Assembly (NCBI RefSeq): GCF_009601705.1
Contig: NZ_CP045687.1
Location: 2,020,001 to 2,084,000 of the forward strand
Length of the DNA: 64,000 bases
Source: Sulfolobus sp. E5-1-F
Lineage (GTDB): Archaea; Thermoproteota; Thermoprotei_A; Sulfolobales; Sulfolobaceae
Reading direction: 5' to 3'
Position 1 is the stretch's first letter. Each line of letters begins with the position of its first letter. Both the position numbers and the translations under genes were made by a program. A model generated the notes under the pieces. The model did no database searches, was not told the DNA's origin, and was given only the letters and a program-made list of their open reading frames with translations. This document shows positions 37,581 through 42,927 of this stretch, one piece after another.

Positions 37581-38141
37581 CTAAATTTTTATTCCAATTA
37601 TTGATAAACGTTCCTTTATACTGTTACTATTTTCCTCAAATGTTTTTACATGTTCTTTCAAATATTCTTTATCAATACTAATCTTACCTTCTCCAAGTAA
37701 GTACACTAGTGTTTTTAATTCATCTTCGTCTTCCTCCCTAAACGCGTTAGCTTTGAGCAAAATGTAATCTTCTAATCTTATACTTTTAAATTCATAAGCT
37801 CCTATTTTTATATTAATTGCACTATCTAGAATTTCTTTTGGAACAAAGAAATCTTGTATATTTTCATATAAATCTATCTGTAGTTGTTCATCATCAATTG
37901 GAGCTAATAATCTTGGAGTATCAATTGGAGTTCTACCATAATCCCATCCTCTCTCATAAGCGAAGTTTCTAATTTTATCATCGTCTACTAAGACACTTAT
38001 ATCTAGGGCAAACAAGTCTACATCACTCTCAGTCCCTTTTCTCTTTAGTGAAATATCTACTATTGTGTCTCCAATTATAATGAATTTTGTAAGATCTTGT
38101 AATTCGTGAAGAACTTCTCCTACCTTACTAAACGGTATCAA
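37581..38141 (-). CDS. Nucleotidyltransferase-like protein
   Basis: A 186-residue protein. FIIIGDTIVDISLKRKGTES followed by DVDLFALDISVLV has the G-(x)-S/D-D-x-D spacing of the minimal nucleotidyltransferase fold, although the usual G-S pair is replaced. PIDDEQLQIDLYENI gives a third acidic residue. The C-terminal half is helical (LEDYILLKANAFREEDEDEL). Substrate and activity are unknown. It is divergent from tRNA-Cys. Confidence 0.7.
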   Translation of the reverse strand: MIPFSKVGEVLHELQDLTKFIIIGDTIVDISLKRKGTESDVDLFALDISVLVDDDKIRNFAYERGWDYGRTPIDTPRLLAPIDDEQLQIDLYENIQDFFVPKEILDSAINIKIGAYEFKSIRLEDYILLKANAFREEDEDELKTLVYLLGEGKISIDKEYLKEHVKTFEENSNSIKERLSIIGIKI

Positions 38142-38192: not shown

Positions 38193-38306
38193 GCCGGGGT
38201 GGCCGAGCGGTCTAAGGCGGCACTACCAGCCCATCGGTAGCGCTAGGGGCCGCAGTGGTATTAGTTGACACCCGTTATTTCGCGGGTTCGAATCCCGCCC
38301 CCGGCT
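38193..38306 (+). tRNA. tRNA-Cys (GCA) with two introns
   Basis: The acceptor GCCGGGG/CCCCGGC has discriminator T at 38306, the U73 typical of Cys. The D arm is GCC/GGC, and the T arm is GCGGG-TTCGAAT-CCCGC. Intron 1 (38222-38246, 25 nt) sits in the anticodon stem after position 28: GGCG/CGCT (4 bp), 3-nt bulges GCA and AGG and an inner CTACC/GGTAG stem form a bulge-helix-bulge. Intron 2 (38256-38269, 14 nt) is placed at 37/38. Splicing gives stem GCGGG/CCCGT and loop CCGCAGA. Position 33 would be C rather than the near-universal U, and the bulge-helix-bulge for intron 2 is weak, so its edges are less sure. Confidence 0.8.
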
Positions 38307-38346: not shown

Positions 38347-39978
38347 ATGAGTCAGCCAAAAAGAAAAGAGGAGACTGTAGGTGTAGAAATGAAAGGTGAG
38401 GAAGCACTTGCATACGTTCTCAATGACATTGGAATAACCAAAGTGTTTACAACTTACTCCCTACCGAATATCATTAAGGAAATGCTAAAGAAGTATAATA
38501 TTGAAGTCGAATTTTCCATGACAGTAAAAGACGCAAGTTGGTTAGCATACGCTTATGCAATGGAAAATAATTCAGTTGGGACTATAATTCAAATACCTGG
38601 TTCTAAGTTAACTGATGCGGTAAATGTCATTGCCCAAGCGTATATGGAATCAGTTCCTCTCCTTATCATATCTAGTGTAAGATCACACAAAGACACGGGA
38701 AGGGCTAGAATTGGCGAATTTAGAACAATCGATGATTTATCAAATATTTTATCTCCAATAATCAAGACAAAAGAAAGAGTTATCAGTATAGAAGAAATAA
38801 CTGTTACAATAGAGAAAGCCTATAAGGAAGCGGTAAGTAATAGACCGAGGCCTTCATATGTCGAGATATCTGAAGACTTATTTAGGGCAAAAGCGTATCC
38901 GTTATCCACTGCAGGCCAAAAGCCTGAGAAAAGGACTCCAGATAAGAATACTGTAGCTAAAGTAGCTGAACTTTTAACTAATGCTAAATCACCAGTTATA
39001 ATTGCGGGATATGGAGTAGTTTTAAGCGATGCTGAAGACATGCTAGTTGAATTAGCTGAATTATTAGACTCACCGGTGGTTACTACATTTAAGGCAAAGG
39101 GATCAATACCATCTAATCACAAACTATTTGCTGGAGAGGGATTAGGCGCCTTTGGTACTGAGGCTGCAAATTATTTTATTGAAAATGCTGATGTAATATT
39201 AGCTTTAGGCACTAGGTTTACTCAGTTAAGCACGGCTGGCTGGTCCTTAAAGTACAAGGGTATATTAGTACATAATAATGTTGATGGCGAAGATATAGGC
39301 AAAGTTTTCATGCCTCATGTTCCAGTAGTAGCAGACACTGGACTATTCTTAAGGGAACTCTTAACGCAATTGAAAACTAAGATAAAAGAGAAAGTAAATA
39401 GAGGAACTAGTGATATTATTTATAAGACTAGACGTGAAATATCTCCGTCTAAATCCCATACTGATTTATGGCCTATTGACGTAGTGAAAATGATGGGCAC
39501 ACTAGGTGGTTTTGAGAAAGTATATGTGGATATGTCAGCTACTACAATAGATTTTGTTAGATTACCGATAAATGCTAAGAAAAGCTGGTATACAGCAGAA
39601 TCTTTGCTCGAGAGAGGTATTGCAGTGGGAGGAGCTATAGCTTCTAAATATGCTGCATATGGAATTACTGATCTAGAGGGAATATTACCATATTTATCAT
39701 TACTAGAATATAAAGTGAATAAGATTAAGGGGAAAATAATTGTGTTAAACGATGGTGGTACAAACTATATTGATGTTTCAAGCTCTGATCTACCGACTAT
39801 TTCTAGATCACAAACTACTATCAACGCTAATTTTGATGAGATCGTAAAAAGAGCTCTAGATGGTGTAACTGTTGAGACGTTAACTGAGTTAGAGGAGGCT
39901 TTAAAATCTGCTGATAAGAAAATTATAAATATAAAGATAGATCCTAATTTCGAGTCAGTCGTAGTTTCAAGAATTTAA
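38347..39978 (+). CDS. Thiamine-diphosphate enzyme-like protein, catalytic motifs altered
   Basis: A 543-residue protein with the three-domain layout of acetolactate synthase or benzoylformate decarboxylase. The Pyr domain (residues of about 15-180) has VPLLIISSVRS and RPRPSYVEISEDL; the central domain has SPVIIAGYGVVLS; the PP domain is C-terminal. The Pyr-domain motif usually read H-E-x-x-A-A-x-x-A-x-G-Y-A is MTVKDASWLAYAYA here, so the Glu that activates ThDP is missing. The GDG...NN cofactor motif is replaced by LEG and LND. It is probably not a standard carboligase. The ECF transporter genes follow 59 nt downstream. Confidence 0.8.
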   Translation: MSQPKRKEETVGVEMKGEEALAYVLNDIGITKVFTTYSLPNIIKEMLKKYNIEVEFSMTVKDASWLAYAYAMENNSVGTIIQIPGSKLTDAVNVIAQAYMESVPLLIISSVRSHKDTGRARIGEFRTIDDLSNILSPIIKTKERVISIEEITVTIEKAYKEAVSNRPRPSYVEISEDLFRAKAYPLSTAGQKPEKRTPDKNTVAKVAELLTNAKSPVIIAGYGVVLSDAEDMLVELAELLDSPVVTTFKAKGSIPSNHKLFAGEGLGAFGTEAANYFIENADVILALGTRFTQLSTAGWSLKYKGILVHNNVDGEDIGKVFMPHVPVVADTGLFLRELLTQLKTKIKEKVNRGTSDIIYKTRREISPSKSHTDLWPIDVVKMMGTLGGFEKVYVDMSATTIDFVRLPINAKKSWYTAESLLERGIAVGGAIASKYAAYGITDLEGILPYLSLLEYKVNKIKGKIIVLNDGGTNYIDVSSSDLPTISRSQTTINANFDEIVKRALDGVTVETLTELEEALKSADKKIINIKIDPNFESVVVSRI

Positions 39979-40037
39979 TATAAGGTAAAGTATTTATTAA
40001 GGCTAATTTTATTTTGTCTTATTCAGAAGTTTAAAAT

Positions 40038-40592
40038 ATGAACGATAAGTCTTCAGATCAAATTTCAATTAAAAAGGCCTTAATTTATGCAGCAGTTTTC
40101 TCAGTAGCGTCATATGCTATTGCAGCAGGATTAACACTATCTACTAGTCTTTTTGCTGTAAATATATTTGCAGATCCAATATTGAATCTCACTGTTCCTC
40201 TAATACTTCTCTCCATTGGTATACAAGTTATTAATAGAAAATTAGGACCTATTTTTATAGGCTTAATTAGCGCTGGGCTGTATGCGATTAGCTTCTTACC
40301 ATTTATTGCAATACCTTTAATTATTGTAGCGTTAATTGTAGAAGGTATAACGAGAGTCATGGGATATAGGTCTTTGAAGGCTGTAATAGCTTATACCACT
40401 ATTGCAGGTGGTTTAGAAGGGATATTAAGTACTTTGCTTGCTCTTTATATGGTGAAAGTCCCTGCACCAATAATAACTTCATTATATATCTGGACTGGAG
40501 TATCAGTTGGAATGTTTGCCGAGAGTGCATTAATGGGATTGATATCTTTCCATATTGTCTCATATTTAATCAAAGCAGGGGTCATCAAATGA
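40038..40592 (+). CDS. ECF transporter S-component-like membrane protein
   Basis: A 184-residue protein with about five to six hydrophobic helices (ALIYAAVFSVASYAIAAGL, LTVPLILLSIGIQVI, FIGLISAGLYAISFLPFIAI). Small and helical with Gly/Ala-rich turns, it fits substrate-binding S-components of energy-coupling-factor transporters. It overlaps the T-like gene by 4 nt (ATGA). The ligand cannot be read; a vitamin is likely by analogy with the family. Confidence 0.7.
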   Translation: MNDKSSDQISIKKALIYAAVFSVASYAIAAGLTLSTSLFAVNIFADPILNLTVPLILLSIGIQVINRKLGPIFIGLISAGLYAISFLPFIAIPLIIVALIVEGITRVMGYRSLKAVIAYTTIAGGLEGILSTLLALYMVKVPAPIITSLYIWTGVSVGMFAESALMGLISFHIVSYLIKAGVIK

Positions 40593-41170
40593 AGGTAAAA
40601 TTTCTTTATATCTTAAGTTTTTCCATCTTAATCTATATAAATAGTATATTTTTTAATTTTATTATACCATTTCTAGTTACATTGGCTCTATTATATAAAA
40701 GGATATGGATTATAGTAATAGAGGTTGCAATTGGAATTCTATCTTTTCTCATATTGGGTTTCCTTGGGAAGATTTTCATTTATCAGTACACCCTTAGAGC
40801 TTTCTCAATTGTTAACGTTTTTTTAATTTCAAGTGACTATACAGATAAGTCTTCAATAATTGATCTATTCGGTTCAAAAGGAGTTCCTCTTTTAATCGCT
40901 CTTACATATTATCCAAGGTTTTATGATGTCATGCAAAATGTTGCTTTTTATGCACGCGTTCGAAAAATAAATTTATTAGATCTTAAAAGGCTACTAGTTC
41001 CAATAATAGTAGAAACAGTGAAAATAGCTGATAATCTATATGTTGCGTATACCGTTAAATTGTTTGGACAGTATAGTTATAGAAGAAATTTAAAGCCTTC
41101 AAGGGAAGATTTAATACCTCTACTTATAGGTGTAGCTACTTTATGCTTGTCATTAGTCCTAAATATTTAA
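40589..41170 (+). CDS. ECF transporter T-component-like membrane protein
   Basis: A 193-residue protein with about five hydrophobic segments and a long cytosolic helical stretch. [20 protein letters not shown] includes an A-R-x-R-K element comparable to the A-R-G coupling motifs of EcfT, followed by [20 protein letters not shown]. It sits between S-like and ATPase genes, overlapping them by 4 and 28 nt. Role inferred from order and topology. Confidence 0.75.
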
Positions 41171-42264
41171 ACGGAAAGATAGAGGTAGAAAAAGGAGAAA
41201 GAGTAGGTTTAGTAGGTAAGAATGGAAGTGGAAAAACTACATTGATATTATCAGCATTATGCATAGATCAGCATACTTCTAACGTTATAGTTGACGATAT
41301 GGATTTCTGTAAAGAGAGAGATTATTCGAAAATCTCAGCGGTTTTACAAGATGTTTCTTCTCAAATATTAGCTTCGACGTGCAAAGATGAAATCGAGTTA
41401 ATGAAAAGATTTCATAGGGTAGATGAAAAAATAGCTAGAAAGTTGATGGGCAGTTACTATGAAGTTGAGTTCAAAAAATTGTCTGACGGATATAAAAAGA
41501 GGTATGCTATTGCTTCGGTTTTAGCTTCAAATCCCGAGTATATCTTGCTGGACGAACCATTTGCAAATTTGGATGATGAAGGAGTAAAATTGGTTAGTAC
41601 GATTATTCCTAAAAATAGTTTGATTGCTGAACATCGTATTGAGGAATTGCGTAAATTAGTAGATAGGGTCTATATGATTAAGAATAATGCAGAAATAAAT
41701 GAGATATCCAAAGAAAACCTTTTTGATACGGAATTCTTAAGGAAAGAAGGATTAAGAGGATTTAATTTACCTAAGATTAACAGTGAATTGGGTAATGAAA
41801 TATTTAATGTAAATGTTAACAATTTTACGATAAAAATAAGAGAAAGGGAAATTCTGTGTTTATTAGGCAGAAACGGAAGTGGTAAAACCACTATTCTCAG
41901 AAAACTATCAAGGAAGATCTTCGTAATTTTTCAAGAAGTGGATTTGCAATTCTTTGATTTTACAGTAAAGGAGATTGTAGGGAGTAAATACGCTTTATCT
42001 TTATTTAATTTAGAAAGTTTGGCAGATAGAAGCCCATATACTCTAAGTTTCGGTCAAAAAATGAGGGTTCTGATAGCATCAGCTTTTTCTTCAGACTCTA
42101 AAGTAATAGGCTTAGATGAACCTAGTGTAGGAATGGATGGAGAGGCATTACTTTCGTTTTATGAAATGGTAAAGGTTCTTAAGGAGCAAAAACGAGGTTT
42201 GATTCTCGCTACGCATGATAAAGATATAATAAATCTATGCGACACACGTATAGTCATAGATTAA
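41143..42264 (+). CDS. Fused double ABC ATPase of the ECF transporter
   Basis: A 373-residue protein with two compact nucleotide-binding domains. The first has [12 protein letters not shown], signature [13 protein letters not shown] and Walker [14 protein letters not shown]. The second has [12 protein letters not shown], signature [13 protein letters not shown] and [13 protein letters not shown] with switch His in LATHDKD. Both are shorter than usual (about 185 residues each). The first lacks the His of the H loop in its normal setting ([10 protein letters not shown] may supply it). It overlaps the T-like gene by 28 nt. Confidence 0.92.

Positions 42265-42315: not shown

Positions 42316-42927
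<612 letters not shown>

Follow-up and report, generated by a model that had tools for sequence, protein, structure and literature searches.

Enzymes that use thiamine diphosphate (ThDP) are a textbook case of one cofactor defining a fold. The fold normally dimerizes, with active sites at the interface, and its cofactor cleft normally cradles the cationic thiazolium; in AHAS, the Met of SSGGLGAMG supports the V conformation of ThDP. ECF transporters of group I are encoded as an S component, a T component and two ATPases in one operon. The residues of the ThDP site are highly recurrent across the superfamily, with frequencies of 94% for Glu51, 98% for Gly443, 91% for Asp444 and 91% for Gly27, and the Val found as a 3% alternative at position 51 is that of the glyoxylate carboligases (PMC3534367).

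Here we compare these systems with a locus in a 64,000-nucleotide stretch of DNA from Sulfolobus sp. E5-1-F, referred to as the window, in which an enzyme-like protein with a ThDP-decarboxylase fold is encoded upstream of a trio of S-like, T-like and fused double ATPase genes (Table 1). The four open reading frames and both overlaps, 4 nt between the S-like and T-like genes and 28 nt between the T-like and ATPase genes, lie where an earlier note on this sequence had placed them. That note also described the trio as following the enzyme-like gene at once; in fact 59 nt separate the enzyme stop from the S-like start, and this interval contains no terminator-like hairpin. Before the S-like gene, an AT-rich stretch at 39991-39999 could, from its composition, be a putative TATA box. 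On the upstream side, a tRNA gene occupies the corresponding spot in 21 of 22 orthologous loci, and the order pth2-truD-aspS-(a gene for 168-170 aa)-DUF2204 nucleotidyltransferase, then tRNA, is kept in nearly all family members; the names pth2, truD and aspS are presumed from reading the sequences, DUF2204 alone having been tested against Pfam. The DUF2204 gene is divergent to the enzyme-like gene, with the tRNA gene between them, in nearly all Sulfolobaceae examined. The context downstream of the enzyme-like gene varies by genus.

Table 1. Features of the locus, in coordinates of the window
Feature	Position	Strand	Basis
DUF2204 nucleotidyltransferase-like gene	37581-38141	-	Pfam-tested
Intron-containing tRNA gene just 5' of the enzyme-like gene	38193..38306	+	
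ThDP-decarboxylase-fold protein, 543 aa, without catalytic Glu	38347..39978	+	ORF, Pfam, 22-member alignment, full-length PDB profile and fold matches
N-terminal tail SQPKRKEETVG, residues 2-12, near-invariant in the family	38350..38382	+	Alignment
TVKD, residues 59-62, replacing the HE motif; V60 is the Glu51 equivalent	38521..38532	+	Alignment
R423, V-conformer Met/Leu position	39613..39615	+	Alignment to 7tzz and column counts
D442, GDG Asp equivalent; preceding Gly replaced by T/V	39670..39672	+	Alignment columns
N468-D469, replacing NN	39748..39753	+	Alignment
S-like membrane protein, 184 aa, Sulfolobaceae-specific family	40038..40592	+	ORF; no Pfam match above cut-off
T-like membrane protein, 193 aa, R-x-R-K resembling the EcfT coupling motif	40589..41170	+	ORF; sub-threshold CbiQ
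Fused double ATPase, 373 aa, Walker A, signature and Walker B in both halves	41143..42264	+	ORF; ECF_ATPase 1.2e-44, below family cut-off
tRNA-Lys gene, 3' end of the block	42316..42411	+	

The length and domain order of a ThDP enzyme, which the earlier note had taken to be intact, are borne out by Pfam and by profile and fold searches of the PDB, both of which give full-length matches. In Pfam, TPP_enzyme_M (4.7e-39) and TPP_enzyme_N (6e-12) score above cut-off and TPP_enzyme_C (0.006) below it, and the PYR, central (TH3) and PP domains are present in order, as in the superfamily fold. Against the ALS-type model the protein scores ~163 bits, compared to a cut-off of 538 bits, and it is thus homologous but outside any named equivalog. 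In profile searches of the PDB it aligns with AHAS, glyoxylate carboligase and HACL/oxalyl-CoA decarboxylase, several nearly end to end, and a structure model (pLDDT 60, pTM 0.53) matches oxalyl-CoA decarboxylase, HACL and AHAS at full length with E ~1e-19; this model, built from seven sequences only, is of low confidence and is usable for the fold, not for pocket geometry. A further ThDP-fold paralogue of this genome, at G000:C1:1113923-1114735 on the minus strand, reads ALQDG and has intact GDG and NN motifs. Benzoylformate-decarboxylase-type proteins read ALQEA at this place, so the catalytic Glu of the paralogue may be Asp.

The thiamine site of the enzyme-like protein is extensively altered, and we followed the changes by column counts in 22 aligned orthologues. 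Replacement of the HE motif by TVKD and of the NN motif by LND, both proposed from the single sequence, holds in the alignment, where H becomes T59, E becomes V60 and the Asn pair becomes N468-D469. The GDG motif had been read as LEG; the flanking glycines are gone, but it is D442, of T-D-L-E-G, that aligns with the GDG Asp. In all 22 orthologues the motif has become (T/V)-D-(L/I/V), with T or V for Gly443 and L, I or V for Gly445. The catalytic Glu51 that characterizes the superfamily is absent throughout (0/22), its position being occupied by V in 7, A in 5, T in 4, P in 4, G in 1 and I in 1, and the residue after it is always K or R. We considered K61 as the Glu51 equivalent and rejected it, as the gap-free alignment puts the Glu on V60 and the K/R one position on. 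The cofactor motif GDGX24-27N is likewise broken, with both Gly lost, the Asp kept and the Asn changed to Asp.

Two acidic positions nevertheless stand out within this altered site, since the counterpart of the GDG Asp, D442, and D469, which replaces Asn471, are each invariant (22/22), and the 27 residues between them match the canonical Asp-to-Asn metal-ligand spacing. Both are among the 18 invariant positions of the 198 in the C-domain, and that both ligand positions should be invariant by chance appears unlikely from these counts (about 0.09 squared, as a rough figure). The low-confidence model places D442 at the end of one strand and N468-D469 at the end of another, as at a Mg-diphosphate site. 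At R423, which aligns with the AHAS Met of SSGGLGAMG, the column holds R in 15, K in 6 and H in 1. Of the superfamily positions, A58, P94, G219, D280 and G286 have equivalents that are all invariant here, and Asp444 is also kept, while Glu51, Gly443 and the S-pocket Gly27 are lost. The motif changes are not chance decay, being fixed throughout the family under a dN/dS of ~0.08.

The enzyme-like gene was found in 22/22 Sulfolobaceae of a first sample and in 29/31 of a second, including 28/28 near-complete genomes; the two genomes without it are 71% and 79% complete. It is present in one copy per genome at E <= 1e-100. Beyond Sulfolobaceae, the best matches fall to ~31% identity at ~200 bits. 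A canonical GDG is retained in the top five of these, as is the Glu where the aligned sequence reaches the site. A scan of named genomes recovered the gene in Sulfolobales only, plus one misnamed contig with Sulfolobaceae neighbors. Horizontal transfer to the "Euryarchaeota" contig L105 was considered and rejected, as its gene order and neighbors are those of Sulfolobaceae and its protein is 80% identical to a family member; the contig looks misbinned.

Phylogenetic analysis places the family in one clade (support 100/100) with a stem of 1.63 changes per site, compared to short crown branches. Between close relatives, an overall dN/dS of 0.07-0.08 points to strong purifying selection, with values of 0.025-0.05 for the N domain, 0.03-0.04 for the central domain and 0.16-0.19 for the C domain. 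Such a burst followed by constraint is the pattern that recruitment to a new role would give. The best conserved parts of the 22-member alignment are the tail SQPKRKEETVG, the N-terminal tail being invariant at 11 of 14 positions, and the central segments AGYG, K251-G252, AGEGxG, QLxTxGW and NVDGED, which we take to correspond to nucleotide-pocket segments of AHAS and oxalyl-CoA decarboxylase. In one orthologue (L083, genome G125) the N-terminal tail is missing in frame, but it is present in the close relative L105, so a frameshift or an error of assembly probably lies close to the start of L083.

To the earlier note, the neighboring transporter genes suggested a functional link with the enzyme-like protein, for which it named conservation of the pairing across Sulfolobales as a check and an unlinked enzyme gene in other genomes among the grounds for refutation. 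The link does not survive this comparison, as adjacency holds in every genome of the window's genus (7/7) but in no other Sulfolobaceae genus in which both were placed. In all seven, the S and T genes follow the enzyme-like gene, and in the four whose neighborhood was read the ATPase gene does so too. Outside the genus, the S gene lies ~95 kb to >1 Mb from the enzyme-like gene in most genera and ~15-75 kb off or on a different contig in Metallosphaera- and Aramenus-type genomes. The arrangement of the trio also varies, with an inverted ATPase gene or non-adjacent S and T genes in some genera. Genome G392, which is 93% complete, encodes the enzyme-like protein but lacks both the S and T genes. 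In one genus (L094 and L095), an S-like gene stands without T or ATPase neighbors, the T gene being 17 kb to 174 kb away.

Two genomes from a different genus have tRNA-Lys directly 3' of the enzyme-like gene with no transporter between, an arrangement that fits insertion of the trio between the enzyme-like gene and tRNA-Lys in the window's genus; loss of the trio is possible instead. Co-transcription or co-use of the enzyme-like gene and the trio in the window's genus is possible. We did not accept operon logic as proof of shared function, adjacency being confined to one genus.

Of the S-like, T-like and ATPase trio that the earlier note described, both ATPase halves look intact, each carrying Walker A, signature and Walker B, as in the ABC ATPase pair of ECF transporters. 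The T-like protein has a sub-threshold match to CbiQ (E 0.21) and an R-x-R-K motif whose last Arg is invariant. For the S-like protein, the searches returned no Pfam match above cut-off, no PDB match and no thiamine S-component family; Trep_Strep appears at E 0.0076, below cut-off, in 2/22 members of its family, which was found in Sulfolobaceae only. The single-sequence model of the S-like protein (pLDDT 57) is too low in confidence for a fold search. Among the 31 family genomes, the T gene and the S gene are each present in 30 and ThiN in all 31, and thiC is missing in 6. We explored thiamine auxotrophy as a clue to substrate and set it aside, since the trio is present in 30/31 whether or not thiC is kept and there is no contrast to exploit; the trio being near-universal, gene content gives no pointer to what it carries. 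In a single genome of the window's genus, beyond these 6, thiC is apparently in three pieces (G397:C1:2212879-2216858). In one genus, which includes Metallosphaera, a ThiD-ThiN-like gene is found close to the trio, a few genes off (L088-L092); in other genera it is not.

Together, the alignments suggest a repurposed core protein that most likely functions without thiamine chemistry. The earlier note had supposed that the protein may bind thiamine compounds without classic carboligase chemistry; the loss of that chemistry and the retention of a fold that may bind a ligand stand, but two changes speak against thiamine binding: all 22 orthologues have a basic residue in place of the V-conformer prop, and none has the Glu by which the aminopyrimidine is anchored. 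The retained Asp pair points to an anionic ligand, such as a metal-phosphate. With moderate confidence, we regard the protein as a nucleotide- or Mg2+/anion-binding pseudoenzyme, a ThDP-decarboxylase fold repurposed to be independent of thiamine and encoded by a vertically inherited core gene of Sulfolobaceae. Its central domain would bind an adenine nucleotide (ADP, CoA, FAD or NAD, for instance), and the former cofactor cleft would either be vestigial or now hold an anionic ligand in a Mg2+-dependent way. The protein might then serve as a sensor, as a subunit with a regulatory or structural role, or as an enzyme whose chemistry does not involve thiamine, and the S/T/ATPase trio would be a separate transport unit that moved downstream in the ancestor of the window's genus. 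More tentatively, the cleft may have been rebuilt, with its invariant Asp pair and basic residues, for a different anionic ligand and Mg2+, giving a non-thiamine enzyme or a nucleotide-responsive regulator.

Other explanations draw on some of the same evidence. The protein could be a pseudo-subunit that tunes a catalytic ThDP paralogue, such as the acetohydroxyacid synthase large subunit, with the N-terminal tail docking onto the partner. The dimers of the fold, with their interface active sites, the five other genes above the TPP_enzyme_N cut-off in the same genome, and the high conservation of the tail and N domain are all in keeping with such a role, which we consider doubtful, no paralogue adjoining the gene in any neighborhood examined. 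An active but atypical ThDP enzyme that dispenses with Glu51 is also unlikely in our estimation, even though glyoxylate carboligase works without this residue and the window protein has Val, the superfamily's 3% alternative, in its place (PMC3534367). Strong purifying selection would suit such an enzyme, and the invariant D442 and D469 at metal-ligand positions could mean that Mg-ThDP is still bound. However, Val is not fixed in the family, Gly443, the S-pocket Gly27 and the hydrophobic V-conformer residue are lost, the last to R, K or H in 22/22, and constraint is weakest in the C-terminal ThDP domain. The idea offered by the earlier note, that the protein senses or stores thiamine in partnership with an ECF transporter for thiamine, has in its favor same-strand adjacency throughout the window's genus and, in several genomes belonging to one further genus, a ThiD-ThiN-like gene that is 4-5 genes from the trio. 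We judge it very improbable, as the genes are unlinked in all other genera examined and one genome keeps the enzyme-like gene without S and T, searches with the S-like protein bring up no S-component family for thiamine, presence of the trio does not track thiC loss, and a basic residue sits at the V-conformer position, where the cationic cofactor would be.

If the reading as a thiamine-independent pseudoenzyme is true, this universally conserved family, which has lost its thiamine-handling residues and retained the scaffold and metal positions, would be a clear instance of a cofactor being replaced or of a pseudoenzyme being recruited. Annotation of the Sulfolobaceae orthologues as acetolactate synthase or TPP-binding enzyme is probably wrong, and the transporter should not be named a thiamine importer on account of its neighbor gene. 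Narrow literature searches, with BbmA, S. solfataricus locus numbers and ThDP pseudoenzymes among the topics, returned no description of the enzyme-like protein.

In comparison to known systems, the trio shares with group I ECF transporters the S-T-A-A gene order with overlaps, the two ATPase halves and the R-x-R-K of the T-like protein, but its S-like protein scores above cut-off with none of the described S-component families and its T-like protein is a sub-threshold CbiQ only. The enzyme-like protein has in common with the ThDP-decarboxylases AHAS and oxalyl-CoA decarboxylase/HACL the three-domain order, the length, a central nucleotide-type domain and the residues A58, P94, G219, D280, G286 and Asp444. 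It departs from them in having no Glu51, no Gly443 or Gly445 and Asp for Asn471, as well as a basic residue for the V-conformer Met/Leu and a conserved basic N-terminal tail. Glyoxylate carboligase (profile E ~1e-28) is likewise without Glu51, and the window protein has its Val; in the family, however, Val is found in 7/22 only and Gly443 is lost in all, so the combination of Val51 with GDG is not found. The best PDB sequence-profile match is BbmA (PDB 8x3x), which aligns over residues 46-531 at E ~1e-39 and, unlike the protein described here, reads GDA where the GDG Asp lies and carries a Glu in the region of the motif.
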